Assembly: GCF_009467825.1 (NCBI RefSeq) | Contig: NZ_WIOK01000013.1 | Span: 21,878 to 85,877, forward strand | Reading direction: 5' to 3' | Origin: Cyclobacterium xiamenense | GTDB lineage: Bacteria > Bacteroidota > Bacteroidia > Cytophagales > Cyclobacteriaceae | Length of the DNA: 64,000 bases | In this document: in pieces, positions 23,008-61,544 of the stretch | Numbering within the stretch: the stretch's first letter is position 1 | Layout of the letters: the number at the start of each line of letters is the position of its first letter | Position numbers and translations under genes: made by a program | Notes under the pieces: model-generated | What the model saw: the letters and a program-made list of their open reading frames with translations, nothing else | Database searches by the model: none | Told to the model about the DNA's origin: nothing

Positions 23008-23324
23008 TTGCCTGAAAATAAAAATTCCATTCGATTGGAAAGACCAAAGGAATGGAGCGACAACTAACAGATCGTGAATTGGTTGGCTTGCATCCCTACG
23101 TTGGCATTATCCAAATCAGGTTTCGGGTCTGATCTCAGCCTGGCCTCCGCCAAGCACCCCGTGCATTTATTTGGATCAAACATACGGAAATTTATTCGTG
23201 CATCCAATTGGTTGGGTTCTTTCCGGTAACGTTTTTCCCCGCTCCCGGACATTCGCAAACATTTTTTAGTATATTTAACAGTTACGAGTCCTAGGCAATA
23301 CACTGAAACAAAACCCATTACCCC
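23008..23324. other. Divergent intergenic region, methyltransferase operon and oxidase gene
   Basis: There is no gene. An AT-rich segment with TATATTTA (23270-23277) is a weak match to the -7 box for the plus-strand oxidase gene; no matching -33 box was seen. The minus-strand operon must also have its promoter here but I could not place it. Confidence 0.3.
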
Positions 23325-37002: not shown

Positions 37003-37590
37003 TCGGTACCTGCGACCGATCATGCTCGCTTTGGAAGTTGATTTGGGAGGGATGGCTTTCCTGAAGCAGCAAAAAATTGCGAGAAGGGGACGGATTGCCG
37101 AGTCAGCGTAAGAAAGGCGATCTTTTTTCGGGCGAACGAACGGTAGGATAGCCATTTATTCCTTTGCACGAATTAAGATTTGTACGGCTACCGGGTGTTA
37201 CCGGCAAGATTCGCTAATTGGAAATTATCATCAAAGGAATCATCGAAAGAAGGTGAGGGAGTTTCTAATTTTAGGAGTTCAATTAAATTTTTGTCGGTAG
37301 GAGTGGGGATTTCGGATGCTACTATGAACGGATGAGGTTACATTTTTTTAATCCTGGAGCCGATAATGGTGAATTTGAGATCGTTCAAAAAAATTAACTA
37401 GCTGAATATAAGAATATTACTAATATACAATGAAGTTTTTTAAATAGTATGGGTTACATTTCCAAAAGAATTTGCTTTTCAAAGTGAATACCAATTCTTA
37501 TTTGTCTGATGGGTAGAATCACGAAATAGACAGTTTAAATAAAGCTCCCTCGTGACCAAATGGCCAAGGAAAAAGAAGCAAAAGCCCAAA
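37003..37590. other. AT-rich intergenic region before the first sigma-factor gene
   Basis: There is no gene. From about 37250 the sequence becomes AT-rich and probably holds the promoter of the sigma/FecR cassette, but no TAnnTTTG match is convincing. No terminator was recognised after the rhamnosidase gene. Confidence 0.4.
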
Positions 37591-38202
37591 ATGCCTGTGA
37601 ATAAACCTTTACCCTCTGATTTTAAACCGGATAAGTCCCCACCTGGCGAAGAACCCGTTGCATTCTCCGCGGATGCATCGGCCTGGAAAGCCTTTCGGCA
37701 GGGCAATGAGTCCGCCTTTATCTATATTTATGAGCGATATTTCCGGGTGTTGTATGCCTATGGCTTTAGGATCGTCGCGGATTCTTCGGTGGTCAAGGAT
37801 GCTCTTCAGGACATGTTTATCGACCTACGGGAGCGGAGGCGGTATCTTGGAGATACGGAAGATATAAAGTTTTACCTATTTAAATGCCTCAAAAGACGTC
37901 TGATCAGGGATTTTTCTGCCTGGCAGGGAAAAAAGGAAGGTTTGGAGGCGATTCCGGAAGGGATCCATTTTTCTCTTTCCCATGAAACTCAATTGATAGA
38001 TCAGCAACTTACCAAGGAAAAGATAGTCAAGCTGAACGCAGCCATTGCCCGATTAAGTCCACGCAAAAGAGAAATAATCTACTACAGCTTTTATGAGGGG
38101 CTTACGTATGCACAAATTCAGGAGATTATGGGGTTGGAAAATCAACAAACTACGAGAAATCTAATGTATAAAGCCATCCGATATTTACGGAAAATGATTT
38201 AA
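37591..38202 (+). CDS. ECF-family RNA polymerase sigma factor, PUL cassette 1
   Basis: The protein is about 203 aa. Region 2 includes AFRQGNESAFIYIYERYFRV and DALQDMFIDLRER; region 4 (SPRKREIIYYSFYEGLTYAQ) carries the helix-turn-helix that reads the -35-type element. The upstream GTG at 37552 gives a basic tail with no likeness to the family; the ATG at 37591 is preferred. The adjacent FecR-like anti-sigma gene starts 75 bp downstream. In Bacteroidota such pairs sense glycan binding through a SusC with an STN domain and drive transcription of the susC-susD genes. The protein is a close paralog of the factor at 55986. Confidence 0.9.
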   Translation: MPVNKPLPSDFKPDKSPPGEEPVAFSADASAWKAFRQGNESAFIYIYERYFRVLYAYGFRIVADSSVVKDALQDMFIDLRERRRYLGDTEDIKFYLFKCLKRRLIRDFSAWQGKKEGLEAIPEGIHFSLSHETQLIDQQLTKEKIVKLNAAIARLSPRKREIIYYSFYEGLTYAQIQEIMGLENQQTTRNLMYKAIRYLRKMI

Positions 38203-38277
38203 TCAGATCAAGATACTCGCTTTCGGAAAAATGAATATAAATGCATCATCAATATTATCAGCTTGCCTGTGAAAGAA

Positions 38278-39324
38278 ATGAAAAAAATAGAAGATTTTTT
38301 GATCCATCCGGAGTTTATCCGATGGGTAAAGCAGCCGGATAAGGAACTGGAGGCCTATTGGGATCAATGGCGAAAGGCTAATCCCAAACAACTCCCCCAC
38401 ATGCTACTTGCCAGGGAGATTTTGCTGCGTGCAGCGTTTGATCACGAAGAACCACCAGCGGATACAAAAGAGGAGGTGCTGCAGGAAATTTTGAAGGAAA
38501 GGAGGAAAGGAAGGCGCGGGGGGCTAAAACTAGCAGAAATAGAAGGTTCAAACCGGACAGGCTTTTTTTGGTATGGCTTGGGGCAAATGACCCGTGTTGC
38601 GGCGATTCTGACAGTGAGTTTGGTTTTTGGATGGATTTTAGTACCAGTTTTTCAGGTAAACCGAGAGCTCCAACTGGTCCAGGTTGAAGAAATAAACGTT
38701 CAGAAAAACACGGAAAGAGGAGAGAAAATGCAGTTAACCTTAGGCGATGGCACCAAGGTATGGCTTAACTCCTCCAGCGAAGTGTATTTTCCTGAGAAAT
38801 TTGCAGGGGAACGGCGCCTGGTCAAGCTTAAGGGGGAGGCGTATTTCGATGTGGTGCATGACAGCTTACGGCCCTTTATCGTCCAGACCGATGATTTGAT
38901 GACTACAGTTTTGGGTACCAGCTTTAATGTCAATACCAAGGAGTCCGGGAGAACCAAAATTTCTCTTGTAAGCGGAAAAGTCAACGTATCATCCAGAAGT
39001 GGCCAAGTTTCTTTGGCACCAGGCGAAATGCTGAACTATGACAATATCAGCGCCTCCTTTTATGTCAGCGGATTTGATGTTTCGCAGGTGTTGGGTTGGA
39101 AAGATGGGGTACTTCGTTTTCATAGGGCTTCTCTCCGGGACGTGAAGGAAGGGCTTGAGGACTGGTATGGGGTAGAAATCAATCTAAAAAATGCACGGGG
39201 CATACATTGGCAGTTCTCGGGGGAATATCCGCAGCAGATGCTGGAAGAGGTGCTTGAGAGTATGTCCTATATCAAGGATTTTGACTACCAAATAAATGAC
39301 AAGACAGTAACGCTAACTTTCTAA
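38278..39324 (+). CDS. FecR-family anti-sigma factor, PUL cassette 1
   Basis: The 348-aa inner-membrane protein uses the ATG at 38278. An N-terminal cytoplasmic sigma-binding part (residues 1-105) is followed by one membrane segment (AAILTVSLVFGWILVPVF), then the periplasmic FecR domain (LTLGDGTKVWLNSSSEVYFP) and a C-terminal DUF4974-like domain (VLGWKDGVLRFHRASLRDV). It holds the partner sigma factor until the STN domain of the outer-membrane SusC signals. A close paralog is at 56890. The region to susC (39325-39478) carries two conserved hairpins. Confidence 0.92.
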   Translation: MKKIEDFLIHPEFIRWVKQPDKELEAYWDQWRKANPKQLPHMLLAREILLRAAFDHEEPPADTKEEVLQEILKERRKGRRGGLKLAEIEGSNRTGFFWYGLGQMTRVAAILTVSLVFGWILVPVFQVNRELQLVQVEEINVQKNTERGEKMQLTLGDGTKVWLNSSSEVYFPEKFAGERRLVKLKGEAYFDVVHDSLRPFIVQTDDLMTTVLGTSFNVNTKESGRTKISLVSGKVNVSSRSGQVSLAPGEMLNYDNISASFYVSGFDVSQVLGWKDGVLRFHRASLRDVKEGLEDWYGVEINLKNARGIHWQFSGEYPQQMLEEVLESMSYIKDFDYQINDKTVTLTF

Positions 39325-39353
39325 GATCATGAACAATAGAGACACATCATAGA

Positions 39354-39389
39354 AAAAGCCGGAGAGGAGAAATCTCCCAGCCGGCTTTT
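39354..39389 (+). terminator. Terminator-like hairpin between fecR and susC, cassette 1
   Basis: AAAAGCCGG (39354-39362) pairs with CCGGCTTTT (39381-39389); inside, GGAGA pairs with TCTCC. The right arm ends in a T-run, so it may terminate or attenuate transcription. A GC-rich hairpin in the same position is found in cassette 2 (57962-57984), followed in both by the conserved loop element. Confidence 0.6.
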
Positions 39390-39393
39390 GAGG

Positions 39394-39439
39394 AAACCTG
39401 TGCATGGCAATCATTGGGGAATGGCACCATGGCAGGTTT
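39394..39439 (+). ncRNA. Conserved susC leader hairpin, cassette 1
   Basis: AAACCTG (39394-39400) pairs with CAGGTTT (39433-39439), and after a small internal loop CATGG (39403-39407) pairs with CCATG (39427-39431). The loop of 19 nt (39408-39426) contains CATTGGGGAATGG. The cassette 2 leader has the same architecture and loop but different stem bases, all compensated. The susC ATG follows 39 nt later. It may be a cis-regulatory RNA or a site for an sRNA or protein. Confidence 0.6.
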
Positions 39440-39478
39440 GGTTTACCGAAATCGATAATTCAATAAACGTATGTAAAT

Positions 39479-42400
39479 ATGAAAAATAAATTACAAAAGA
39501 CAATCATTATGTTGTCCAAATGCTTTCTATACGGGTTAGTTTTGCAGACCCTGATGCTAAATTTGGTGTTTGCCCTGAATGCGAATGGGCAATATAAAAA
39601 TATAGAGGAGGTCAGGGTCACATTATCGGCAGAACAGTTAAGTCTGAATCAGTTTTTTAGGGAGGTGCAGCGGCAGACCCCCTTTAAGTTTTCCTATGAG
39701 TACCGGGATGTGGATAGACAGCAATCTGTAACCTTTGCTAAAAAGGAAGGCCCTGTTATTGATTTTTTAAGGGAGGCCGCACAGCAAAGCCAACTGTCTT
39801 TTCGGCAGGTAAATCATGGGATTGATGTGGTGAAAAAGAAGGAAAGTGATGTGGGGGTGACAGTGATCGATCCAATTACCATAAGTGGAAAGGTGTTTGA
39901 TGAAAAAAGAGAACCTTTGCCGGGCACTACTATAACAGTATTGGGTAGTAGCAGTGGTACAGTAACTGACATTGATGGTAATTATTCAATTACTATTCCA
40001 GAGGGTTCCACTTTAGTATTTTCCTATATAGGGTATGCGTCCAAAACCGTTATGGTAGGCGCACAAAGTACGGTTAATGTCATGTTGATCGAAGATCAGA
40101 CCTCGTTGGATGAATATGTTGTTATTGGATATGGGACTCAACTTAGAAAGAACCTTTCCAGCTCTACTTCTAAAGTGGATGTTGAAAATGTTAATTTCTT
40201 GGGTGTCAATTCTTTTGAAGCGGCACTACAAGGAATGGCAGCTGGGGTTCAGGTCACACAAAGTAGCGCATTGGCGGGTTCAGCTGTAAATATTAGGATT
40301 CGTGGTAGTTCTTCGGTAGTAGCAAGTAGTGAGCCATTGTATGTTATAGATGGAATACCGGTAGAAGCTGGAGCGATAGGTGGTTCAAACCCGGGGCAGG
40401 CCGCAAATAACTGGAATCTTCAAACAGCCGCAAATACTAACGTATTGGCAAGTTTAAATCCAAACGATATCGAATCAATTGAAATACTCAAAGATGCAGC
40501 TTCTGCTGCTATTTATGGCTCAAGGGGCTCAAATGGTGTGGTTTTAATTACAACAAAAAAAGGGACTGTCGGAAAACCCAAGATCAATGTTTCTTCAACT
40601 TTCGCTATTTCTGAACCAACACGTAAAATCCCACTTTTAAACAGTCAGCAATATATAGAATTGGCACAGGAGGCTTGGGTAAATTCAGGGAATAATCTAG
40701 TGGACTTTTGGTCTCGAAGTGGGGTGTTACAGAATGGTTTAACGGAAGCTGAGGCAAAGGAAACCAATACAAATTGGGTCGATGAAACATTAAGGACAGG
40801 TTATCTCCTGGATCACAATTTTTCAATGTCCGGTGGCACAGAAAAAACCATCTATTTCATCAGTGCTAATTTAAAAAATCAAAAATCTATTCTCCAAGGA
40901 AATGATTATAGGAGTTATGGATTTCGTTTAAACCTTGAACACACGGCAAATAATATTTTCTCATTTGGGGCAAATATGTCTATGGGTCACGTTAATAACA
41001 ACCAGGTTCCAACAAGTTGGGCAGGTGGTGTCGGTCATGTTAACGAGTTGTTACCCATTTGGCCAGTTTATAATAGCGATGGCTCCTATTTCCGGCCACG
41101 AAATAATCCTGTAGCCCAAATCAACCTTCGGGATATGAATTTCAAAAGTAACCAATTTTATGGAACTTGGTATGTAAGGGCTAGAATCGCAGAAGGTCTT
41201 ATGTTTCGATCAGAGTATGGTCTTAATTTCCTGAATAATGACGATTATCATTTTAGAGACGGAATTACTCTATGGACTGGAAGATCTTCGGCCGCAACAC
41301 TTATTGGAAACAATGTTTCCTGGAACTGGAATAATAGCCTGAATTATCAGAAGCAATTTAAAGGTCATAATTTAGATATTTTATTAGCTACCGAAGCTCA
41401 GAAATCCATTCGGACAGAAAATACAGCATTAGGAGAAGGTTTCTTCAATTCTGCAACTATTTATCCACAGGATGCTGCTATTAAAATACTCGGCTATTCG
41501 CAAAGTGGATACTCCTTCAATTCCTATGTAAGCCGGATAAATTATGACTTTAAAGGTAAGTATCTTTTTTCTACGAGCTTGAGGACTGATGGTTCGTCCC
41601 GCTTTGCGGTAAATAGCCGATGGGGTTATTTCCCCGCCGCATCTATTGGATATATTATTAGTGAGGAGGAGTATTTCAGGTCTTTAGGGAACACCTTAAA
41701 TTTTTTAAAATTAAGGGCTAGTTACGGCGTTGTTGGAAATGCCGGGATTGGAAACAATACATTTACCACCAATTATAATACAGCCACTTATAATGGTAAT
41801 GTTGGAATTTTTATGAGTAATCTGGGAGATAATAGACTGGGATGGGAAAAGACCGCGCAATTGGATATTGGGCTTACTTGGGGGGCTTTAAATGATAGAA
41901 TCACAGGAGAGATTGATTACTATTACAAACGTACCGACGATCTACTATTAGGTTATCCTGTTTCAGCTTTAACTGGAGTGGATAATATCACGACAAATGT
42001 AGGTATACTTACTAATAGGGGTGTTGATATCTCACTAAATTCGGTCAACGTCAGAAAGGCGAATTTTGCATGGGAAACAAAATTCAACATAAATTTCAAC
42101 GAAAATAATATTGTAGAGGTTTTGCCAGGCCGAGCAGAAGGTGTGACACTTAATACTTGGTTAGGATCCACTACACTCCAACCAGGTTTACCAGTGGGTA
42201 TTTCACAAATGGTCGTATGGAAAGGTGTTGATTCGGCAACAGGTCAGGATACATATCTTGAACAAGAGACAGGTAATATTTTAACCACAGGTGAAATAAA
42301 TACCAATTATGGAAATTTCAATAATTTTTGGAATGAAAACTTCATTTTCACAGGTAATCCTTGGCCTAGGAACACAGGAGGGCTTTGGAATGGATTTAGC

Positions 42401-42865
42401 CGGAAAAACTGGGATTTAAGCTTTCTGTTTACTTGGGCAGTGGGGCAGGAATATGTTTTTGGTGATGTTAAGAGATACTTGGATCCATTTGGGGGTTACA
42501 AAGTTAATCCACCAACCCATTTGTTGGACAGATGGCAAAATCCAGGCGATATAACCAATGTTTCTCAGGTAACTACTCAAAATATACAATGGGGTAATAC
42601 TACAGAGCATTTATTTCGAACTGATTTTTTGCGCTTAAAAGACGTTAATATTGGCTACACTTTTAGCGGGAGTCAGAATTCTATTTTGAATGGGTTAAGG
42701 ATGTCCATGAGATTTTCAAATCTTTTAACCTTTACCAAGGCACCTGATTTCTTTTGGGATCCCGAATTTACCGGTGTAAATTTTAACAATAGTTCTGCTT
42801 TGGGTGCAGATAAAGGCGCGCCCCAGGCGAAAACTTATATGTTGAGTGTGTCCTGGGACTTTTAA
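39479..42865 (+). CDS. SusC/RagA-type TonB-dependent transporter with STN domain, cassette 1
   Basis: The 1128-aa outer-membrane protein has a signal segment (residues about 1-38), then an STN domain (about 45-120, LSLNQFFREVQRQTPFKFSY) that passes a ligand signal to FecR. Next come a CarboxypepD_reg-like domain (about 135-215, ISGKVFDEKREPLPGTTITV), a plug domain with PLYVIDGIP and IYGSRGSNGVVLI, and a long beta-barrel ending in Phe. It imports glycan fragments with the SusD lipoprotein encoded 27 bp downstream. The STN part resembles cassette 2 in base composition, while the rest of the gene becomes clearly AT-rich. Confidence 0.95.
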   Translation: MKNKLQKTIIMLSKCFLYGLVLQTLMLNLVFALNANGQYKNIEEVRVTLSAEQLSLNQFFREVQRQTPFKFSYEYRDVDRQQSVTFAKKEGPVIDFLREAAQQSQLSFRQVNHGIDVVKKKESDVGVTVIDPITISGKVFDEKREPLPGTTITVLGSSSGTVTDIDGNYSITIPEGSTLVFSYIGYASKTVMVGAQSTVNVMLIEDQTSLDEYVVIGYGTQLRKNLSSSTSKVDVENVNFLGVNSFEAALQGMAAGVQVTQSSALAGSAVNIRIRGSSSVVASSEPLYVIDGIPVEAGAIGGSNPGQAANNWNLQTAANTNVLASLNPNDIESIEILKDAASAAIYGSRGSNGVVLITTKKGTVGKPKINVSSTFAISEPTRKIPLLNSQQYIELAQEAWVNSGNNLVDFWSRSGVLQNGLTEAEAKETNTNWVDETLRTGYLLDHNFSMSGGTEKTIYFISANLKNQKSILQGNDYRSYGFRLNLEHTANNIFSFGANMSMGHVNNNQVPTSWAGGVGHVNELLPIWPVYNSDGSYFRPRNNPVAQINLRDMNFKSNQFYGTWYVRARIAEGLMFRSEYGLNFLNNDDYHFRDGITLWTGRSSAATLIGNNVSWNWNNSLNYQKQFKGHNLDILLATEAQKSIRTENTALGEGFFNSATIYPQDAAIKILGYSQSGYSFNSYVSRINYDFKGKYLFSTSLRTDGSSRFAVNSRWGYFPAASIGYIISEEEYFRSLGNTLNFLKLRASYGVVGNAGIGNNTFTTNYNTATYNGNVGIFMSNLGDNRLGWEKTAQLDIGLTWGALNDRITGEIDYYYKRTDDLLLGYPVSALTGVDNITTNVGILTNRGVDISLNSVNVRKANFAWETKFNINFNENNIVEVLPGRAEGVTLNTWLGSTTLQPGLPVGISQMVVWKGVDSATGQDTYLEQETGNILTTGEINTNYGNFNNFWNENFIFTGNPWPRNTGGLWNGFSRKNWDLSFLFTWAVGQEYVFGDVKRYLDPFGGYKVNPPTHLLDRWQNPGDITNVSQVTTQNIQWGNTTEHLFRTDFLRLKDVNIGYTFSGSQNSILNGLRMSMRFSNLLTFTKAPDFFWDPEFTGVNFNNSSALGADKGAPQAKTYMLSVSWDF

Positions 42866-42892
42866 CTAAATCTTATCTTTAAATTAAGTTTT

Positions 42893-44251
42893 ATGAAAAA
42901 TATAATATTAAGTTTACTAATTCTAACATTTATTTCGTGCAGTGATGACTTCCTTGATATTCCACCGGCAACCGGTCTCACTGACGATAAATTGGTAGAT
43001 CTTACTGCAATGAGAGCCTTAATCAATGGTGCCTATAGTCTTACAAGAGGAAACCAAGGAGTACCTTTTTGCGGAGAATCCTCTTTGTATGGAACGACAA
43101 TGGTTCGTGATGTGGTGGTAAGGAATAATAACAATTATCCTCAATTTTTCGATCATCTTCTAGCAAATGATTTAGGTTATTTTGTAAGGGGATATCGAAT
43201 ATTAAACACGCTAAATACCATAGCAGTTAAGGATTTGTCCATCATGGAGGGAACCGACGACCAAAAGAAAGCTATTTTAGGCGACATGCATTTCTTGAGG
43301 GCACTGATTTATTTTGATTTGAACAATTATTTCGAGCTTTCTTCTACAGGGTATTCCGTTCCCCTATTGCTCAAACCACTTGGTGTGGATGAAACGATTA
43401 GCAGCAGTAAGACTGGAGAGGTAAGAAACGCTATAGAAGAAGATATTGAGCAGGCGAGGTTCAATTTTCAGAATAATCTCAGTGGGGTTGCAAATTACCA
43501 AGCTGCCACTGCCTTGGCTGCCAGAATTTACTTTTTTCATAAAAAATATGACAAAGCTTATGAAATGGCGGACGAGGTAATCAAAACGGGTGATTTTATC
43601 ATTGAATCAGATGTAAAGGCACCATTCAATCCACTCGGGACTTCTCGTGAAAATATTTTTTCATTCAAATTTAATCCAGGTGACAATGCCAACCCACGGC
43701 CCACGACAAGTTTACGAAATGCCTACCAGCCAAATGAGACAACAGGCAGTCTCAGTCTAAATCCGAATGGTGTTTTGTCCAGATTAATGAATGCTGATCT
43801 CCAGGATAACCGTTGGAGTTTTTACACTGTCCAACCTAATATTACTTATATAGACGGTAAATATTCCAGTGATCAAATGGACATGATTTATATAAGATTG
43901 GCTGAAATGTATTTGATCCGTGCAGAGTCCAATATAATGAATAACAATAGTGTTAGCCAACAGGATGTTGATGATATAAATATATTAAGGTTTAGGGCTA
44001 ATCCTTCAACAATCCTTACTTTTATTCCTGAAAAAAATGCAGCTCTCGATACCTTATATAACGATAGGACGAAGGAGTTAGCTATTGAGCTTGGAGATCA
44101 TTACCTAAACACTAGACGACTTCAAAAAGGAATAATTAAGACTGATCAAGAAGGGGTCGGAATAAAACCATATAGTGAGTATGCTGATTTACTAGCTTTC
44201 CCTTTTCCGTTGAATGAGATTCAGATTCATGGATTAAACCGAAAGCCGTAA
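42893..44251 (+). CDS. SusD/RagB-type glycan-binding lipoprotein, cassette 1
   Basis: The 452-aa lipoprotein (signal LLILTFISCSDDFLDIPP) has SusD-fold TPR-like helices, including LGDMHFLRALIYFDLNNYF, ARIYFFHKKYDKAYEMADEV and MDMIYIRLAEMYLIRAESN. It caps the SusC barrel on the cell surface and binds the glycan. At 452 aa it is shorter than typical SusD proteins (500-600 aa). A strong hairpin after the gene (44287-44338) marks the end of the susC-susD transcript. Confidence 0.93.
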   Translation: MKNIILSLLILTFISCSDDFLDIPPATGLTDDKLVDLTAMRALINGAYSLTRGNQGVPFCGESSLYGTTMVRDVVVRNNNNYPQFFDHLLANDLGYFVRGYRILNTLNTIAVKDLSIMEGTDDQKKAILGDMHFLRALIYFDLNNYFELSSTGYSVPLLLKPLGVDETISSSKTGEVRNAIEEDIEQARFNFQNNLSGVANYQAATALAARIYFFHKKYDKAYEMADEVIKTGDFIIESDVKAPFNPLGTSRENIFSFKFNPGDNANPRPTTSLRNAYQPNETTGSLSLNPNGVLSRLMNADLQDNRWSFYTVQPNITYIDGKYSSDQMDMIYIRLAEMYLIRAESNIMNNNSVSQQDVDDINILRFRANPSTILTFIPEKNAALDTLYNDRTKELAIELGDHYLNTRRLQKGIIKTDQEGVGIKPYSEYADLLAFPFPLNEIQIHGLNRKP

Positions 44252-46374: not shown

Positions 46375-46455
46375 ATAGGGTTAATGAATAAAAATATAAA
46401 GAAACTTGTTTATAGTTTCAAAAAACAACGGTCAATCTTTAAAAATTATATAGAA

Positions 46456-48155
46456 ATGAAAATTAGATTAATTTATTTGATGTTGATTATCTCATCTCAT
46501 GTCGTTGCTCAAAAAACCGGGTTTATTAATCCCATCATTCCGGGTGGTCATCCAGATCCATCAATTTGCAGGGTAGGGGATGATTATTATATTGTTAACT
46601 CCAGTTTTGAATATTTCCCAGGATTGCCTATTCATCACAGTAAGGATTTGGTTAATTGGGAATTAATTGGTTATGGACTGCATCGGGAGGATCAGTGTAC
46701 GGGTGCAGTAAATTTAGTTGATGTGCAGCAAAACGGAGGCATACATGCGCCAACTATACGTTATAATAACGGTACATTTTACATTATTGTAACCAATGTA
46801 TATTCTCCACCAGCAGGAGGCCCTGGACAAATGGTTAATTTTATCATCACTGCTGAAAATCCTGCAGGTCCATGGTCAGAACCTCATGTGATAGAAGGTG
46901 CACCAGGCATTGATCCTGATTTGTTTTTCGATGATGACGGAAAGGTATATTTTGTGGGAACTCATGCTGTTGGAAAGCCAAATGAAAACGGTATTGGCGA
47001 AATATGGGTTCAAGAACTGGATCTGAATCAATGGGAACTTGTGGGAGAACGTTACTCGGTATGGCGTGGGGCATGTGATGGTTGTTGCGTTGAAGGTCCA
47101 CATATGTATAAAATAAATGGCAAGTATTACCTTATGGTAGCTGAAGGAGGGACCAGTTATAATCATGCAGTTATGATTTCTGCCAGTGATAGTGTTTTCG
47201 GCCCTTTTGATTCAAATCCACGTAATCCGATTCTTACTTCCCGGCATTTGACAAAGAATAATTGGGTACATGTACCGGACATGCCGATTTAGTTGAATTG
47301 AAAGACGGAAGGTGGTATATGGTTTTTTTGGGTATCCGGAATGATGAAGAGGGAACTTCAAATATGGGAAGGGAAACTCATTTGGTGCCGGTAGCCTGGG
47401 AACCGTCAACTGTTCGATGGGAAGAAGTAAGCAAAGGAAACTGGCAGCCAGTGGAATATTTATGGCCGGTTGCTTCACCGGAAACAGGGAAAGTTGAACG
47501 TTACACTTCACTTCCATTTCCTGAAAATCCGCAATATTTTAATGATGCTTTTACTGACAATTTTGATGCAGAAGAATTGGGCCATGAATGGAATTTCAGA
47601 CGTGTACCTCTGCCTGGAACATATTCTTTATCTGCTTTCAAAGGATTTTTAAGGCTACACCTGAAGCCTGAAACCTTCAAGTTACTTGGCCGCTACAGTT
47701 TAATGGGCATCCGCCAAAAGGAGAGCGATTTTGATTATAGCGCAAAGATGCACTTTGAACCTAACAAAGAAAATGAAGAAGCTGGTATCAGCATCTTTCA
47801 GCAAGATGATAACTATGTGAATTTCACAGTTGTGAAAAAAGGAAAGGGAGTGAACTTAAAGCTGACGGTAAAAGAGCGTGAAAAAGAATTGGAAGTGTTA
47901 AAAGAAGAAATTATTGATAAATACCAGGGCGAAATAATATTCAAACTGAGTGCTAAAAACAATACTTATCAATACTTATATTCTCTTGATGGGGGAAATA
48001 CCTTCAGACTTTTTGCTGAAACTCAAAGCAATATTGTTTTATGCAAAGGATACATAGGAACCTATGTCGGTATATATGCCACAAGTAATGGCAAACCTAC
48101 AAAAGAATATGCTGATTTTGACTGGGTAAGTTACAAAGGGTATCCCCGCTATTAA
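46456..48155 (+). pseudogene. GH43 family glycosidase, interrupted by a one-base frameshift
   Basis: The first part, from the ATG at 46456 (signal MKIRLIYLMLIISSHVVAQ), encodes the five-blade propeller of GH43: NPIIPGGHPDPSICRVGDDY carries the catalytic base Asp, and VEGPHMYKINGKYYLMVAEG holds the acid Glu. It stops at 47292. The rest continues in another frame from about 47262 (GHADLVELKDGRWYMVFLG) through a C-terminal concanavalin-like domain to 48155. The joint lies near 47265-47276, where one missing base turns V-H-V-T-G-H-A-D into a premature stop. An intact gene of about 566 aa is expected, probably a beta-xylosidase or arabinofuranosidase type. A sequencing error is possible. Confidence 0.8.
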
Positions 48156-52895: not shown

Positions 52896-54302
52896 TTACT
52901 CCTGAAGCAGGTGTCAATTTTTGGTGCGATATGTTGTATTTTCTTCTCTTTCTTTTCCTTTTTTGCTATTTATAGTATTGGTTGGTCCTTGCCGGTTTTC
53001 CCAGACCCTTTCTGGAAAATTTTCTTCCCTTTTTTACTGCTACCAGCTTTCGGGCTATCTTGTTGACCAGGGTTTCCAGTATTTTTTCCACACTTTCGCG
53101 GCTGAACAACTCCACAATTCTTTTTCTGAGTTGTAGAAAAGCATTTTTCCAGTTGTATTTGTACGTCAATTTCCGTTTCTTTTTCCTGGACCTACTTTTC
53201 TTTTCAATCTGCTCAGTAGCAGCTACTCCAGCAAGTGCTACCATGTTCATGGCCAGGATATGGGCATAAAATTCCTGATAGATTCCCTGCGGCTTTCTAC
53301 ATCCGAACTGCTCCACTTTTATTTTTGGCTTAAGGTTTTTGATGCCTTCCTCAACGCCCCATCTCATGTCATAAAGTTCCACAAGATCTTCAATTTTAAA
53401 TGATTCCATATCCTGTAGGCTGCTTACCAGGAGTTCCGTTTCACCCGTTTCCAGAACGGCTTTGGTTACCCTAACCCGTACAGGATCCGAGGTTTTGGCC
53501 GTTCCCCTCTCTGATTTGCTGGGTACCCATTCGGTGATAAAATCCATCCTGCTGTCAGCCATTACCTCTTTTGCAAAATTGGATATCCCGGTAGACATCC
53601 GGATGCAGAAGGGTCTTCCTTCACTAGTCATTCTGTGCGCCATGTGGAAGTGGCCAAAGTTCCTGTCCAGCACCAGCAGGTCATCCGGCTTGGGTGGAAT
53701 TTCAAACAGGCAGTCACCGAGTAAGGCGGATTCGCCCGTACTCATTCTTCCGAGTCTTGCCTGTAGCGTAAGGCCGGTAAGTACCTCATAGACAAGAAGT
53801 ATCCTGGCTAGTGAGGTCTTTGAACTACTGGATTGAACTCCAAAATATCCCCTTATCTGTTTGGATGCTGGTAGATTTAGGGTACTTCCATCACCACCAA
53901 AAACCCTGTACCCCTTCCATCTGGCCGTAGTGAACCTGTCATAATCTTCTGAACTAATAGCACAGAGATCAGAGAAAAATTGCCATTCAATTTTATAGCG
54001 CCCCTGTGAGAAAGCACTTCCGGTGACTTCTCGCTTCCCCAGCTTGGAAAGGACGCCTTCAGTATCAGAATTGGCGGATTCTTTGAACAGTTGGAGCACT
54101 GAAAGTACTACAGTTTGGAAGTCGAGAGGGGAAGACCTGGAAAAATGAGCGGGGTCCGAGCAGTAAGTAACCTGATTTTCAGGTGATTGTATTTTTTCAA
54201 AGATTTTTTTTCGGACAATCGCAAGATATATCCATCGTGTTTTGGTTGGTATTTTGTACCTTCGTAGCTATATGTTTAAGACAACACAATTTACCTAAAG
54301 TA
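52896..54302 (-). mobile_element. IS4-family insertion sequence, ends uncertain
   Basis: The bounds are approximate: the left end is near the point where the beta-propeller gene is broken (about 52896), and the right end lies beyond the coding start (about 54240-54300). I did not find convincing terminal inverted repeats or a target duplication. Confidence 0.5.
52966..54099 (-). CDS. IS4-family DDE transposase
   Basis: The 377-aa frame begins with GTG at 54099. Visible catalytic features are DGSTLNLP (first Asp), LLVLDRNFGH (second Asp) and the Y-(2)-R-(3)-E-(6)-K signature YDMRWGVEEGIKNLK with the final Glu. Coding character continues upstream of the GTG to about 54290 (for example FEKIQSPENQVTYCSDPAHF) without any usable start in frame. 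The only ATG (54235) is in another frame and joins it by a +1 shift at an A8 run (54211-54204 on the minus strand). The gene therefore has either a slippage-dependent start or a small indel. Terminal inverted repeats were not identified. Confidence 0.85.
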   Translation of the reverse strand: MLQLFKESANSDTEGVLSKLGKREVTGSAFSQGRYKIEWQFFSDLCAISSEDYDRFTTARWKGYRVFGGDGSTLNLPASKQIRGYFGVQSSSSKTSLARILLVYEVLTGLTLQARLGRMSTGESALLGDCLFEIPPKPDDLLVLDRNFGHFHMAHRMTSEGRPFCIRMSTGISNFAKEVMADSRMDFITEWVPSKSERGTAKTSDPVRVRVTKAVLETGETELLVSSLQDMESFKIEDLVELYDMRWGVEEGIKNLKPKIKVEQFGCRKPQGIYQEFYAHILAMNMVALAGVAATEQIEKKSRSRKKKRKLTYKYNWKNAFLQLRKRIVELFSRESVEKILETLVNKIARKLVAVKKGRKFSRKGLGKPARTNQYYK

Positions 54303-55985: not shown

Positions 55986-56594
55986 ATGCCTGTTTCTCAT
56001 TTTACCGTTTCGAAACGGTTTCTTATCGAAAAAAAGAACGCCCGGTCGGTGGATAAAATCCCGGATGCAGCCCTTTGGGATCAGTTCCGGAGTGGAAGTG
56101 ATGCGGCGCTTATACAGGTATACGAACAGAATTTTGACCGGCTGTATGCGTATGGGATGCGGTTGACCCGGGATGAATCCCTGACCCAGGATGGGATACA
56201 GGAGGTTTTTTTCGATTTAAAACGACTCCGCAAGAAGCTGGGGCCTACGAACCATATCCGGTTTTATTTGCTAAAATGCCTGAAACGAAAGTTGTTTCGA
56301 CTAAGGGACGGATGGGAACAGCGTCGCGTGGACCTGGCGGAGCGGGAGGGTTTTGGGTTTGAGTTATCCCACGAACAAATCCTGATAGACCAGCAGCTGG
56401 ATGGGGAGCGTATCGAGCAGCTGAACCGGGCCATTGCCGAACTAAGTCCCAGGAAGAAGGAAATCATTTATTATTTTTTTTACGAGGACCTTTCCTATGC
56501 GGAGATTCGGGAATTAATGGGATTGGATAGTGACCATACCACCCGCAACCTGATGTACAAGGCGCTGGCCTTTTTGCGAAAAGCCCTGGGGTGA
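55986..56594 (+). CDS. ECF-family RNA polymerase sigma factor, PUL cassette 2
   Basis: The 202-aa protein shows region 2 (FRSGSDAALIQVYEQNFDRL, QDGIQEVFFDLKRLRKKLG) and region 4 (LSPRKKEIIYYFFYEDLSYAE). Overall likeness to the factor at 37591 is high, down to the core LIDQQL followed by a basic stretch, so they are paralogs. It starts at an ATG after a short AT-rich leader and is followed by the FecR gene about 295 bp downstream, an unusually long gap compared with cassette 1. Confidence 0.92.
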   Translation: MPVSHFTVSKRFLIEKKNARSVDKIPDAALWDQFRSGSDAALIQVYEQNFDRLYAYGMRLTRDESLTQDGIQEVFFDLKRLRKKLGPTNHIRFYLLKCLKRKLFRLRDGWEQRRVDLAEREGFGFELSHEQILIDQQLDGERIEQLNRAIAELSPRKKEIIYYFFYEDLSYAEIRELMGLDSDHTTRNLMYKALAFLRKALG

Positions 56595-56639
56595 TCCGTA
56601 TGGACCAAGCCTCCCAGCTCCCATATCTTCGCCCACATT

Positions 56640-56730
56640 CACAACATCAACCAATCCCCATCAATCCCCATCAATCTCCCTCAACCTGCTTCAATCTCAA
56701 TCAATCTCTTTCAATCCCCATCACCTCCTC
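56640..56730 (+). repeat. Degenerate ATCAATCCCC-type short repeat
   Basis: Eight or nine imperfect copies of a 10-bp unit (CAATCCCCAT, CAATCTCCCT, CAATCTCTTT and related) follow each other in the spacer between the sigma factor and FecR genes. The top strand is almost free of G. There is no equivalent in cassette 1. Confidence 0.6.
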
Positions 56731-56889
56731 TCCCAGTCCCTAAGTCCCCAGTCTCTAAATCTTTATATCAAAATTTTTTGGAATACGGCAGATTTTTTTT
56801 TACCAGCATTTTTTATAAAAAAAAGTAAATTTTTTGGGTGTTGTTTTGCATACAGTCCGCATTTACTGGAAAGAAGGAAGACAACTCGC

Positions 56890-57927
56890 ATGAAGACCAA
56901 AGAGGATTTTCTGGCTGATCCAGAATTTATTGCTTGGGTAAAGCATCCCAACGAGCAGTTGGATCGCTATTGGTCCAACTGGATGGCGGCCAATCCCGGT
57001 CAGGTGGGGGAGTTGAAACTAGCCAGGGAAATCCTACTCCGGGTTCGGTATTCAGAATACCCGGCACCCAAAAGAGTCCGGGAGGACATCCTGCAGCAAT
57101 TGCTTCGGGAACCGGAGCCCCAGGAGCAACCTGAAAAAGCTGCGGGAAAAAGGGTCCTAACGTTTGGTTGGAAAGCTGTCGGGCAAGTTTACCGCATTGC
57201 CGCGATTCTGCTCCTATCTTTTGGTTTGGGCTGGTGGCTTTCGCCCCCATCTGCGCCCATTTCTTCGGGTACGCTGGCAGAGGAGATTTCCTGGATCGAA
57301 AAGGTTACCCAACCGGGCGAGAAATTGCTGTTGACCCTAGGGGACGGCAGTCGGATTTGGTTGAATGCCAACAGCAAACTCTACTTTCCGGAGAAGTTTG
57401 ACTCATTGGAGCGCAGCGTACGGCTGGAAGGTGAGGCCTACTTTGAGGTAGAAAAAGACAGTTTACGGCCCTTTCATGTAGAAACCAATGGGTTGGTGAC
57501 CACGGTATTGGGCACTACCTTCAATATCGCCAACCGGGAAGGATCGGCAATCGCTATTTCTCTGGTGTCCGGTGCCGTGAAGGTAAGGGAGAAAACCGCA
57601 ACCGACCCGGTTTGGCTCAAGCCGGGAGAGGCCCTGCACCACGACGCCGTTTCAGGAAAGCAACGCGTAAGGAGTTTTGATCCGAATGTGGTGCTGGGCT
57701 GGAAGGAAGGATGGATTCGGTTTGAACATGCCTCGCTCAACGAGGTGCTGCAAACCCTGGAAAACTGGTACGGGGTGGCGTTTCGGGTACAGGGTTCGAA
57801 GCCCGTCGCCTGGGAGTTTTCCGGAGAGTACAAGGAGCAGACCCTGGAGGAGGTGTTGCGTAGTATGGCTTACATACAGGGCTTCCAATTCAGTATAGAA
57901 GAAAAAATAGTTCACTTAAAGTTTTAG
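56890..57927 (+). CDS. FecR-family anti-sigma factor, PUL cassette 2
   Basis: The 345-aa inner-membrane protein has an N-terminal cytoplasmic region (DFLADPEFIAWVKHPNEQLD), a membrane segment at about 100-118 (IAAILLLSFGLGWWL), then the FecR domain (LLTLGDGSRIWLNANSKLYF) and a DUF4974-like C-terminus (VLGWKEGWIRFEHASLNEV). It is a clear paralog of the protein at 38278, sharing the DPEFIxWVKxP opening. It should control the sigma factor at 55986 in response to the SusC at 58078. Confidence 0.93.
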   Translation: MKTKEDFLADPEFIAWVKHPNEQLDRYWSNWMAANPGQVGELKLAREILLRVRYSEYPAPKRVREDILQQLLREPEPQEQPEKAAGKRVLTFGWKAVGQVYRIAAILLLSFGLGWWLSPPSAPISSGTLAEEISWIEKVTQPGEKLLLTLGDGSRIWLNANSKLYFPEKFDSLERSVRLEGEAYFEVEKDSLRPFHVETNGLVTTVLGTTFNIANREGSAIAISLVSGAVKVREKTATDPVWLKPGEALHHDAVSGKQRVRSFDPNVVLGWKEGWIRFEHASLNEVLQTLENWYGVAFRVQGSKPVAWEFSGEYKEQTLEEVLRSMAYIQGFQFSIEEKIVHLKF

Positions 57928-57961
57928 ACCTATGATATACATTCACGCGCCATAAAAAAAA

Positions 57962-57984
57962 CCGGTTGGTAAAAAACCAACCGG
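57962..57984 (+). terminator. GC-rich hairpin between fecR and susC, cassette 2
   Basis: CCGGTTGG (57962-57969) pairs with CCAACCGG (57977-57984) across a TAAAAAA loop. Unlike cassette 1 no T-run follows (CTACTGG), so it is probably not a strong terminator. It occupies the same place relative to the conserved leader hairpin. Confidence 0.45.
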
Positions 57985-57991
57985 CTACTGG

Positions 57992-58040
57992 CTGGTCTGA
58001 TGATGGTGTACATTGGGGAATGGGGCCATCAAGAGACCAG
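57992..58040 (+). ncRNA. Conserved susC leader hairpin, cassette 2
   Basis: CTGGTCT (57992-57998) pairs with AGACCAG (58034-58040); an internal loop GA/AG follows; TGATGG (58001-58006) pairs with CCATCA (58026-58031). The 19-nt loop (58007-58025) contains CATTGGGGAATGG, as in cassette 1. All the stem bases that differ between the two leaders are compensated. The susC ATG is 37 nt downstream. Confidence 0.6.
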
Positions 58041-58077
58041 GCTTATTGAAATTAGTTTCCAATAAACATCCAAAATT

Positions 58078-61000
58078 ATGAAAAATTATTTACTAAAGAC
58101 AATACTCATGTTGTCGAAAGGCTTTTTATACGGCTTACTTGTGCAGATGCTGTTGGTCAATGTCGCCAGCATCATGCAGGCAAAGGGACAGTACAAGCGG
58201 ATCGACGAGGTCAGCATTCGCCTATCCGCCCCTTCACTCAGTGTTCGGCAATTTTTTAACGAAGTAGAACGAAAAACGCCTTTTAAGTTTGCCTACGACA
58301 ATAAAAAAGTGGATAAATCGCAAATCATCCAGTTCAAAAACGAGTCCGGGACAGTAGAAGACAGGCTAAAAGATGCCGGTCAACAACTAAGTTTGGGTTT
58401 TCGGCAGATGAACCATTCGATTGCTGTGGTACCCAGGAGTCAACCGATAGTCGAGGTTTTTGCCGAAGAGGAGTTAATGCCGATTACCGGAAAAGTGGTT
58501 GATGAAAATGGAGAGCCTATTCCGGGGGCCACGGTATTGATTGAAGGTACCACTACCGGCACAGCCACGGATATCGATGGTAGATTCAATTTGGATGCAG
58601 AGGAAGGAGTTGTCATTTTGGTTTCTTTTATCGGTTATCAATCACAGCGCATCACTGTCGGTAATCAAACCAGTTATTCCATAACTTTGATTGAGGATCA
58701 ATCCTCGTTGGAAGAAGTGGTTGTTGTGGGGTACGGGACACAGGAAAGGGCGAAATTAACCGGATCGGTCGCAAGTGTTAAATCGGACGATATTGATTTT
58801 ATACCAACATCCAATTTGTCAAATGTATTGGCTGGGAGGGCGCCCGGTGTACAGGTTGTCCAATCTTCCGGATTTGCAGGCGCTCCTTCTAGTATTTCAA
58901 TTCGGGGGAGTGCAGCAATCGCAGGTTCTTCCCCCTTGTATGTAATTGATAATATTATAAAAAGCCGGGAAGATTTTGATGCATTGGATCCCAACGAGGT
59001 GGAGAGCGTCAGTTTTTTAAAGGATGCTGCTACGGCTGCCATTTATGGTGCGAGGGCGGCAAATGGCGTTGTTTTGGTAACTACCAGACAGGGAAAATCA
59101 GGGAAGCCTGTTTTTACGTATAAGAGTTTTATCTCTACTTCAAGGCCTACCCGACCTTTACCTCGATATACAGCTACTCAAGAATTAGAATACATCAATT
59201 CCCACGCAGAAACATTTGGAAATCCACAGCCAATTACAGAAGAAATTTTCCAATATTTTGAAGACAAGAATTACGAATTGAATGATTATATATGGCGGAA
59301 TCCATCCTCTCAACAACATAATTTGAGTGTGAATGGGGGGAATGAAAGTCTCACGTATTACATGATGTTGGGAACCAATTCCGACAAAGGTTCATTCACC
59401 AATACCGATTACTCCCGATATAACTTTAGAAGTAATGTCACGGCGAAAATTACGGATAACCTTAAAGTTAATCTTAATTTAAGTGGAAATAAAAGGGTTA
59501 CGAATCGTTTTTTCTGGCCATATGATTGGGATGGAGGAGAAGGGTTTGAACTATCGGATTTTTATAGAACCACGTTTAATTGGAGCAGATTATATCCGTT
59601 TTTTGTTGACGAGCAGGGTAACCCTACTACGGATACCGAAAATGGGTTACCTATAGGGAGAGGGGCTTGGAATCCGGTTTTAATGCTGGAAAACGGCAAT
59701 TACAGAAAGATCAACAGGAACACATTCAATGGCATCATTCGAATTGACTACGATCTTCCTTTTATTGATGGCTTAAGTACTAGCCTGATGGCCAATTATT
59801 CCTTTGATTCCAGAAATCAAAAGAACTTTGTGATTCATAATAGGTCGTATCGCTTCCAGCAAGGCTCAGCTACTAACCCCTACGTGCCAGGCCCGATTGA
59901 TCCGACAGACCTGAATGTACACAATCTATCCAGATCCTTTGAGGGGATTGATGAAAGTGCGAATTTCGGGGATAATTACCAGTTAAACTGGTTTTTAAAC
60001 TACGAAAAGGTGTTTGGTGAGCATAGCGTGGCCGGGACGGTCATTTATGAGCAGGCTGCGTTTACCGGTAAAATGTTCAATGGTTCGGCCAATCAATTAC
60101 TGACAAGTAGTGTAGATCAGATTTTTGCAGCTTCAACGGATACGCAGCGCAGGTATTTCTCAGGCAGCGAATCTGAAACAGGAAGAGCGTCCTGGATTGG
60201 CCGTACCCGATATGAATATTCGAGTAAATATATTGCTGAATTTTCGTTTCGTTACGATGGTAGTTACCGATTTCCTAAGGACACAAGGTGGGGTTTTTTC
60301 CCATCTGGCTCTTTTGCCTGGAGAATTTCGGAAGAAAATTTTGTAAATATTCCTTCAGTTAGTGAGTTTAAATTGAGGGGCTCAGTAGGCACCACAGGTG
60401 ATGACAACGTGGCTCCATTTCAATTTCAGAATAATTTTGTTCCGAGTTCCGGATACGTTTTTGGAAATACGCTATACAACGGCATACGGGCTGGAACACC
60501 TCCCAATCCCAATATAACCTGGGCGAAAATGATTGCTTATAATTTTGGTTTTGACTTTGGGTTGTTTAATGATAGGCTGGTCGGAAATTTCGACTATTTC
60601 CACAATCATCGGTACGATCTTTTGAGGCGGCGAATTAGGGTGATACCGGGAACCTATGGAGCGCCCTTAAGTGATGAAAATTATGCCGAGATCGATGTAC
60701 GCGGTGTTGAATTTTCAATGAATTACCGAAATAGTATCGGAAGATTCAATTATACCATTGGAGGAAATATTGGATATGCTAAGGATGAAGTAGTGGTAAT
60801 CGACGAGCCAGTGGGCCTGGAAGATTGGAGAACAGCGATAGGACATCCGATAAATCGGATCTGGGGTTATCGCTCAAATGGTATTATCAGAGATCAGGCT
60901 GCCTTAAATGCGATTCCGGAAGGGTTTACTCAATTTGGTAGGTCACCCATGTTGGGTGTGATTTTGTACGAAGACATAAGAGGGGTGAATAGAACAGAAG

Positions 61001-61533
61001 GGGCTGATGGTATCGTTGATCAAAATGACCAGGATTGGCTCTCAAATAATGCTATTCCAAGAATAAATTATGGTATTAATGGAGGATTTAGCTGGAAAAA
61101 TCTAAAAGTTGATTTCTTGCTTCAGGGAGTGGGTGCATTTGATAAAATTGTTAAGACTCAGAATACCCGTTCTGGTGGTGTTTTCCAAACAGGGGATAGA
61201 CCCTATTTTGACCTTTGGACAGATCGGTGGACCCCTGATAGGACGGATGCCCCTTACCCAAGAGCAGGGGGATGGGGAATGCCGGAATTCGGTTGGGGGC
61301 CTTCAGATTTTTGGATCAGGAGCGGCGCATACCTTCGGTTAAAAAATTTAAATGTTGCCTATGATCTACCTATGGAATGGTTAGCTACCAATAATATCAA
61401 TTTGCAGGTCTTCTTTAATGGGACCAATCTTTTCGTTCTGTCACCATTTAAGGAATATGATCCTGAGCAGGATAGGTTAGATTCCTACCCTTTAATGAAG
61501 TCATTTACAGGTGGTATAAATGTTAGATTTTAA
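58078..61533 (+). CDS. SusC/RagA-type TonB-dependent transporter with STN domain, cassette 2
   Basis: The 1151-aa outer-membrane protein has a signal segment, an STN domain (about 45-120, LSVRQFFNEVERKTPFKFAY), a CarboxypepD_reg-like domain (ITGKVVDENGEPIPGATVLI), a plug (PLYVIDN and IYGARAANGVVLVTT) and a barrel that ends in the usual Phe (GGINVRF). Its first 120 residues closely resemble the SusC at 39479, but the barrel is diverged, so the two should take up different glycans. The SusD partner starts 11 bp after its stop. Confidence 0.95.
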   Translation: MKNYLLKTILMLSKGFLYGLLVQMLLVNVASIMQAKGQYKRIDEVSIRLSAPSLSVRQFFNEVERKTPFKFAYDNKKVDKSQIIQFKNESGTVEDRLKDAGQQLSLGFRQMNHSIAVVPRSQPIVEVFAEEELMPITGKVVDENGEPIPGATVLIEGTTTGTATDIDGRFNLDAEEGVVILVSFIGYQSQRITVGNQTSYSITLIEDQSSLEEVVVVGYGTQERAKLTGSVASVKSDDIDFIPTSNLSNVLAGRAPGVQVVQSSGFAGAPSSISIRGSAAIAGSSPLYVIDNIIKSREDFDALDPNEVESVSFLKDAATAAIYGARAANGVVLVTTRQGKSGKPVFTYKSFISTSRPTRPLPRYTATQELEYINSHAETFGNPQPITEEIFQYFEDKNYELNDYIWRNPSSQQHNLSVNGGNESLTYYMMLGTNSDKGSFTNTDYSRYNFRSNVTAKITDNLKVNLNLSGNKRVTNRFFWPYDWDGGEGFELSDFYRTTFNWSRLYPFFVDEQGNPTTDTENGLPIGRGAWNPVLMLENGNYRKINRNTFNGIIRIDYDLPFIDGLSTSLMANYSFDSRNQKNFVIHNRSYRFQQGSATNPYVPGPIDPTDLNVHNLSRSFEGIDESANFGDNYQLNWFLNYEKVFGEHSVAGTVIYEQAAFTGKMFNGSANQLLTSSVDQIFAASTDTQRRYFSGSESETGRASWIGRTRYEYSSKYIAEFSFRYDGSYRFPKDTRWGFFPSGSFAWRISEENFVNIPSVSEFKLRGSVGTTGDDNVAPFQFQNNFVPSSGYVFGNTLYNGIRAGTPPNPNITWAKMIAYNFGFDFGLFNDRLVGNFDYFHNHRYDLLRRRIRVIPGTYGAPLSDENYAEIDVRGVEFSMNYRNSIGRFNYTIGGNIGYAKDEVVVIDEPVGLEDWRTAIGHPINRIWGYRSNGIIRDQAALNAIPEGFTQFGRSPMLGVILYEDIRGVNRTEGADGIVDQNDQDWLSNNAIPRINYGINGGFSWKNLKVDFLLQGVGAFDKIVKTQNTRSGGVFQTGDRPYFDLWTDRWTPDRTDAPYPRAGGWGMPEFGWGPSDFWIRSGAYLRLKNLNVAYDLPMEWLATNNINLQVFFNGTNLFVLSPFKEYDPEQDRLDSYPLMKSFTGGINVRF

Positions 61534-61544
61534 ATTTGAAGACC

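Follow-up and report, generated by a model that had tools for sequence, protein, structure and literature searches.

Conserved hairpins upstream of susC in Cyclobacterium xiamenense and other Cyclobacteriaceae point to a probable DonS-like antisense RNA

The window analyzed here, a 64,000-nucleotide stretch of the C. xiamenense genome, carries two cassettes with the gene order ECF sigma factor, fecR, susC, susD, assigned with Pfam and located at 37552-44251 and 55986-63254. In cassette 1 the plus-strand genes for the ECF sigma factor (37552..38202), the FecR anti-sigma protein (38263..39324), and SusC (39479..42865) are followed by susD (42893-44251), and in cassette 2 the corresponding genes lie at 55986..56594, 56890..57927, and 58078..61533, all on the plus strand, with susD at 61536-63254. 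The whole genome yielded 13 FecR matches. A DDE transposase gene (52966-54099) separates the two cassettes. Elsewhere the window holds a GH43 xylosidase-type gene in two overlapping frames (46384-48155; Pfam positions 3-237 and 242-284 of 288), a frameshift that is either genomic or derived from the assembly, as well as a TPP riboswitch (23076-23171) and a match to Acido-Lenti-1 RNA (917-961) that barely reaches the gathering score (37.1 versus 37).

Each fecR-susC spacer contains two hairpins, exactly where a first-pass annotation of this DNA had placed them. Hairpin 1 is found at 39353..39389 in copy 1 and 57954..57986 in copy 2, and hairpin 2 at 39394..39439 and 57992..58040, with its loop core at 39412-39423 and 58011-58022; the susC ATGs (39479 and 58078) follow 39 and 37 nt past the hairpin 2 stem, as that annotation had stated. 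The 19-nt loop that it described is indeed present but is not open, since four base pairs (CATT/AATG), capped by GGGG, form a helix inside it. This inner helix changes in step among relatives, becoming TATT/AATA in two leaders (L181 and L325) and TTCT/AGAA in two others (L305 and L315). The only two exact occurrences of CATTGGGGAATGG in the window, and likewise in the whole genome (5.78 Mb), are those in the two spacers. A third leader of the same genome with the 12-mer core (L194; G000:C62:136447-136502) precedes a SusC gene, and no FecR-like frame was found when 1.5 kb upstream of it was searched; it is perhaps an orphan or degraded cassette. While the two hairpins of the original description of the spacers stand, that description missed a third hairpin, promoter-like boxes on the minus strand, and a tiny open reading frame (ORF), all of which are presented below.

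The predicted folds of the two-hairpin spacers were clearly more stable than those of shuffled sequences, with z scores of -3.8 (copy 1) and -7.2 (copy 2) and none of 200 dinucleotide shuffles equaling either; for hairpin 2 by itself, 4 of 200 shuffles of copy 1 and 0 of 200 of copy 2 folded as well. We then aligned hairpin 2 from related leaders (30 rows from 36 unique segments, all found via the exact loop, so that the invariance of the loop in this alignment is by construction). Its covariation score was 0.358, versus 0.162 ± 0.018 in shuffled alignments, and the number of double-change cells was 83, versus 36.8 ± 4.8, neither value being reached in 500 shuffles, while two further measures applied to the same 30 sequences gave unremarkable values (52/500 and 239/500). 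Two of the measures thus support the earlier proposal of selection on RNA structure, with compensated stems around a fixed loop. No named leader RNA had been recognized here before, and a search of both spacers against Rfam agreed, giving nothing above the gathering score and nothing credible at a low threshold.

The element is tied to susC, as that annotation had proposed. Across the family Cyclobacteriaceae, 56 non-redundant susC leaders combine the loop core CATTGGGGAATG with stems that have been rewritten and covary; these remained at 93% identity from 88 candidate loci, 87 of which passed (the start of L110 was not recognized). The distance from the end of the loop to the susC ATG was 46 to 65 nt over the 56 loci and 51 to 58 nt in 48 of them. 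The exact 13-mer was present in 59 of 196 genomes of the family, with a reversed-pattern control giving 12 matches. Among the 90 places listed for it, 88 were examined (all except G159:C101 and G051:C427), and at least 29 of these were leaders directly upstream of a SusC-type start; this figure is a lower bound because 55 of the other 59 places were only flagged by a script as overlapping, on either strand, a frame of 80 or more codons. On a larger scale, the pattern CATTGGGGAATGGN{24,54}CAATAAAC run over contigs of 84,980 species returned 30 stretches, 27 of them real, from Cyclobacterium, Lunatimonas, Pleomorphovibrio, Cognataquiflexum, Belliella, Aquiflexum, and Lunatibacter, including also a Cyclobacteriaceae MAG (two stretches) and a Spirosoma fluviale MAG contig (one). 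Two Pedobacter matches and one Nitrospirae match to this pattern were judged to be due to chance.

A covariance search, which the first-pass annotation had called for, was run with a model designated R1 and gave matches with E values of 0.1 or lower in 48 of 390 genomes of the family. Inspection of 29 weaker or new places identified 21 susC leaders and 8 positions inside coding sequence (L170, L173, L180, and L186-L190), which were set aside. At the order level, 9 of 390 genomes were matched, eight of them from the family and one with a match (L191) that was also set aside as coding-like from its sequence. Where upstream frames were tested among the relatives, FecR was found in 5 of 5. Since the stems have been rewritten across genera, recent duplication alone could be ruled out as the source of the two copies, and the structure must be ancient.

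The annotation had taken the element for a leader or attenuator in the sense transcript, bound by a protein or an sRNA. This was not supported by the polarity of hairpin 1, the counts of G.U pairs, or the third hairpin, and we infer that the selected RNA is the strand opposite the susC leader. A G.U pair on one strand corresponds to an A.C mismatch on the opposite one, so the strand matters when wobbles are counted. Wobbles flanked by Watson-Crick pairs favored pairing on the minus strand over the plus strand by 24:5 in hairpin 2 and 28:2 in hairpin 1, and a sign test by clusters of related loci gave 20:3, 18:3, 15:3, and 12:3 at thresholds from 0.93 to 0.62 (P = 0.0002 to 0.018, minus favored). 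Hairpin 1 was more stable on the minus strand in 48 of 56 loci and on the plus strand in 5. According to a script count, it was preceded on its 5' side by a run of at least four A's in 38 of 42 loci and followed on its 3' side by a run of at least four T's in none of the 42, a run inside the arm being scored as 3 (TTTT lies in the arm of copy 1, L001, and of L098); it thus has the features of an intrinsic terminator for minus-strand transcription. The U-run is on the minus strand in both copies (an eight-T run in copy 2); the plus side of copy 1 also has CTTTTG, and copy 2 has no plus-strand T-run. A strong hairpin 1 was missing in 14 of 56 loci. Outside the family the polarity was weak, as among 25 FecR spacers of at least 75 nt from the phylum and the order, 22 had a strong hairpin, 6 an A-run of four or more, and 1 a T-run of four or more. 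Hairpin 2 as a whole gave a sign opposite that of the other strand tests, being more stable on the plus strand in 40 of 56 loci and on the minus strand in 15; its stems alone were strand-neutral (27 to 26).

Hairpin 3, located in the stretch that separates hairpin 2 from susC (39440..39468 in copy 1 and 58041..58067 in copy 2), stands out on the minus strand only. Its mean energy was -7.0 kcal/mol on the minus strand, -2.0 on the plus strand, and -2.0 for the shuffled minus strand, and in 55 of 56 loci the minus-strand value was below the mean of the locus's own shuffles; in these shuffles, as in those for the antisense-leader duplexes described below, only the single-base composition was kept. 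An alignment of all three hairpins, with a structure taken from the minus strand, comprised 25 of the 56 loci; 28 had been chosen for a readable 3' run, L126, L175, and L016 were then removed, and L021 and L147 were shortened at their 3' tails. In this alignment, 94% of the cells were paired, there were 93 double-change cells versus 27.3 ± 5.2 in shuffles, and the covariation score was 0.479 versus 0.257, neither value being reached in 500 shuffles; the G.U pairs numbered 84 on the minus strand and 7 on the plus strand. Counts of G.U versus A.C favored the minus strand in every one of the three hairpins. RNAalifold scored the same alignment at -21.1 on the minus strand and -19.3 on the plus strand, the covariation term being better on the minus strand (4.5 versus 2.2) and the folding term slightly better on the plus strand (-17.1 versus -16.5). 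A consensus fold restricted to the hairpin 3 columns gave no structure on either strand.

From these features, a minus-strand RNA with three hairpins can be predicted in each spacer, at 39353..39468 in copy 1 and 57954..58067 in copy 2, both ends being putative. Its predicted length is about 115 nt, or 108 to 115 nt over the three copies of this genome. R2, a model of the full length constructed from minus-strand sequence, matched 31 of 196 genomes of the family, and its three matches in C. xiamenense were all on the minus strand, including those at the two spacers (G000:C11:61228-61345, equal to window 39351-39468, E = 9.3e-13, and G000:C11:79831-79944, equal to window 57954-58067, E = 1.2e-16). 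At 30 of the 37 R2 loci found in the family and the class, a SusC-type start lay 10 to 12 nt from the 5' end. No such start was seen at the remaining matches, L411-L417 (E = 2.8e-5 to 0.0099), two of which (L411 and L413) are too truncated by contig ends to be judged. When R2 was applied to 395 genomes of the class, seven were matched (C. xiamenense itself, one further family member, and five others); outside the family no match was convincing, a SusC-type start being seen only beside the matches of C. xiamenense.

The predicted 5' end is preceded by promoter-like boxes. For the primary sigma factor of Bacteroidota, a -7 consensus of TAnnTTTG and a TTTG near -33 have been described (PMC7366714). 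In both cassettes a minus-strand -7 box extends into the susC start codon, as an exact TAnnTTTG in copy 2 (TAATTTTG, 58071..58078) and in an imperfect form in copy 1 (TATTTACA, 39472..39479), and a -33-like TTG (plus-strand ACAAT) lies at 58099..58103 and 39500..39504, respectively. The poor -7 box of copy 1, the very copy to which the first-pass annotation referred, is a real weakness. Across the loci, 46 of 56 susC starts, versus 0 of 111 control ORFs, have the form [CT]AAA..TATG, whose minus-strand equivalent is TAnnTTT[A/G]; the exact TAnnTTTG is present in 18 of 56. Codon 8 of susC was ACA in all 36 cases of threonine and GCA in all 7 cases of alanine, versus 24 to 25% in nine genes of the window, a bias that fits a minus-strand TTG positioned 21 nt from the -7 box. 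Codon 12, for its part, was TTG in 42 of 56 loci, versus 25% of the leucine codons of the same nine genes. In sum, the statistics show selection on minus-strand hairpins, the polarity of a terminator, promoter-like boxes, and a fixed register to the susC ATG, and predict that an antisense RNA is produced.

A tiny ORF follows fecR in both cassettes, encoding MNNRDTS-stop in copy 1 (39329..39352, plus strand) and MIYIHAP-stop in copy 2 (57932..57955, plus strand; orthologues read MVYIHAP, MVLIHAP, and MVMIHAP). It precedes hairpin 1, and its stop adjoins the predicted 3' end of the antisense RNA. An ORF of 3 to 10 codons with its stop 33 to 65 nt upstream of the loop was found in 49 of 56 loci, and in 30 of 56 it ended in [DN][TS][ST]-stop. 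The last two codons plus the stop were spelled in 23 ways, with serine encoded as TCN or AGY, and this variety of synonymous spellings points to selection on the peptide. The ORF also occurs upstream of susC genes without the GGGG loop, the strict ending [DN][TS]S being present in 9 of 31 leaders chosen independently of the loop. A tiny ORF reading MKTNSS-stop was also seen at L221, a locus from a different family of the same class. The literature searched held no evident report of a tiny ORF between an anti-sigma gene and a transporter gene.

We also collected leaders by similarity of SusC instead of by the loop, keeping 31 of 83 (those in which no upstream stop was found were excluded, among them L305, L315, L325, L335, and L347) and adding 7 from C. 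xiamenense itself, 38 in total. In leaders gathered by SusC similarity the inner helix varies and the core T-GGGG-A remains, and in all accepted leaders of this loop class the GGGG is on the sense strand; the hexamer TGGGGA by itself was not clearly enriched in the 38 leaders (7 versus 2.7, with a shuffle maximum of 8). A second loop, TTTGGCGA, is carried by the antisense strand in L005, L008, and L009 (from C. xiamenense), L318, and L294, and by the sense strand in L328, L336, and L292; it was found 8 times in the 38 leaders versus 0.2 in shuffled ones. The combined motif TTGG[GC]GA, picked after the loops had been seen, occurred in 12 of the 38 leaders (7 on the plus and 5 on the minus strand) versus 1.5 in shuffled ones (maximum of 7 over 200 shuffles). 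When the loops were tested for the U-turn motif YUNR, UUGG was found in the GGGG loop on the sense strand and in the TTTGGCGA loops on either strand. The occurrence of the U-turn loop in either orientation is the main reason for which we prefer loop-loop kissing to protein binding as its probable role. Leaders with the loop CATCGCCAAATG, which form a second class, were seen before SusC genes at L005, L008, and L009 (C. xiamenense), L196-L204, L207, L212, and L213. Folding of ten of these loci (L196-L204 and L207) gave a hairpin that looks like a minus-strand terminator (-18 to -28 on the minus versus -8 to -17 on the plus strand), and the pattern of this class turned up at 19 places, 12 of them preceding a SusC start, with 15 of 196 genomes represented.

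Three other readings of the element were weighed. A function of the hairpin within the susC mRNA, either in attenuation or in binding a protein or a trans-acting sRNA, would agree with the invariant loop, which suggests a partner in trans, with the greater stability of the whole hairpin 2 on the plus strand (40/56), and with the GGGG always being on the sense strand in accepted leaders of its class; we nevertheless regard it as unlikely, since the wobble asymmetry, the terminator polarity, and hairpin 3 all favor the minus strand and the second loop class uses either strand. We give slightly less credence still to a real minus-strand RNA acting mainly in trans through a CCCC loop seed, its overlap with susC being incidental. 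Retention of the loop across paralogues speaks for such action, as do the 27 genomic occurrences of the 10-mer ATTGGGGAAT, versus 5 for a reversed control, and the precedent of RbpB and FopS in Bacteroides, described as trans-acting sRNA control at susC starts (PMC11697453). Against it, 20 ATTGGGGAAT sites that were viewed comprised 10 in frames, 7 opposite frames, 1 intergenic site, and the 2 leaders of the window, and the 5' end of the predicted RNA holds its 10- to 12-nt register to susC. Least plausible, and in our view very improbable, is a DNA element in which the dyad CATT-GGGG-AATG serves as an operator or the ECF -35 region of susC with the hairpin secondary, for although the dyad symmetry and the near-constant distance to the ATG would suit it, the half-sites covary like a helix (TTCT/AGAA and TATT/AATA), and neither a -10-like block conserved at a fixed distance past the loop nor any other conserved block that could mark a sense ECF promoter of susC was identified downstream of the loop.

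The reading that we consider fairly probable is that each fecR-susC spacer encodes a DonS-like cis-antisense RNA whose loop would kiss the susC leader and which would lower susC expression. Transcription of this RNA would start from a housekeeping-type Bacteroidota promoter, with the -7 box overlapping the susC start codon, 10 to 12 nt before the susC ATG, and would end just past fecR, beside the tiny ORF; the RNA would fold, from 5' to 3', into hairpin 3, hairpin 2 (which bears the conserved loop), and the terminator hairpin 1. The antisense loop would first meet its complement, the loop in the leader of the susC mRNA, aided by the U-turn loop UUGG[G/C]GA on one of the two RNAs. Pairing would then extend over the leader to just upstream of the susC start, and susC translation or stability would drop for as long as the sense transcript driven by the ECF sigma factor stays too scarce. 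The sense hairpin is the likely partner of the antisense RNA, because most copies of hairpin 1 have no T-run on the sense strand, and read-through from the sigma factor gene and fecR should consequently cross the leader. A consideration that counts against the antisense reading is that a purely cis-acting pair needs no conserved loop. Non-cognate duplexes between the antisense RNAs and leaders of C. xiamenense were computed at -69 to -103 kcal/mol, versus means of -37 and -39 for shuffles of the third leader with two of the antisense RNAs, but as internal structure was ignored, these values are a hint of cross-talk only. One could imagine a genome-wide loop code, in which the antisense RNAs of paralogous susC genes share a kissing loop, have diverging stems, and seal only their cognate leader, with a ribosome on the tiny ORF deciding on the duplex; we regard this as a speculative and rather doubtful extension.

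Several known systems resemble the one proposed here. The DonS-like antisense RNAs of Bacteroides, 78 to 128 nt in length, are described as divergent to susC and as having a negative effect on it (PMC7366714, PMC11697453), and 32 antisense RNAs associated with polysaccharide utilization loci (PULs) have been listed in Bacteroides thetaiotaomicron (PMC10994844). Like these, the predicted RNA (minus strand) lies opposite the susC homologue (plus strand) of such a locus, and its length of about 115 nt falls in the range given for DonS-like RNAs (PMC7366714); it differs from their description by the family, Cyclobacteriaceae, in which it is found, the conserved loop with rewritten stems, and the tiny ORF. 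The likeness is thus one of position and predicted length, the two being set side by side by description. An own promoter and a Rho-independent terminator would also be expected of a DonS-like RNA; in this regard the loci show the terminator A-run in 38 of 42 cases and the promoter-like box in 46 of 56 in its relaxed and 18 of 56 in its exact form, the box of copy 1 being poor. The antisense RNAs of plasmid copy control, which are described as starting with loop-loop kissing through a YUNR U-turn (PMC4485353), share complementary sense and antisense hairpins and a motif that UUGG fits, whereas the present element is chromosomal, concerns a transporter gene, and would kiss by prediction. The FopS sRNAs, acting with RbpB in B. 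thetaiotaomicron, are likewise reported to exert RNA-based repression at susC translation starts, but are depicted as having a single-stranded 5' seed and one terminator hairpin, as serving several PULs, and as belonging to Bacteroidaceae (PMC11697453).

The structure upstream of susC is real and ancient, and the RNA that it belongs to is probably an antisense one of the DonS type, unusual in its conserved loop. If so, antisense control of the kind investigated with DonS in gut Bacteroides would extend to the Cyclobacteriaceae, with covariation evidence that bears on the RNA itself and with a covariance model, precise predicted ends, and a proposed strand. The conserved tiny ORF between the anti-sigma gene and the transporter gene appears as a separate element. 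The finding raises the question of why the paralogous copies of a cis-antisense RNA should all retain the same loop; were the loop code to hold, each antisense RNA could make contact with all susC leaders of its class, which would allow cross-talk and a ranking of nutrient loci.
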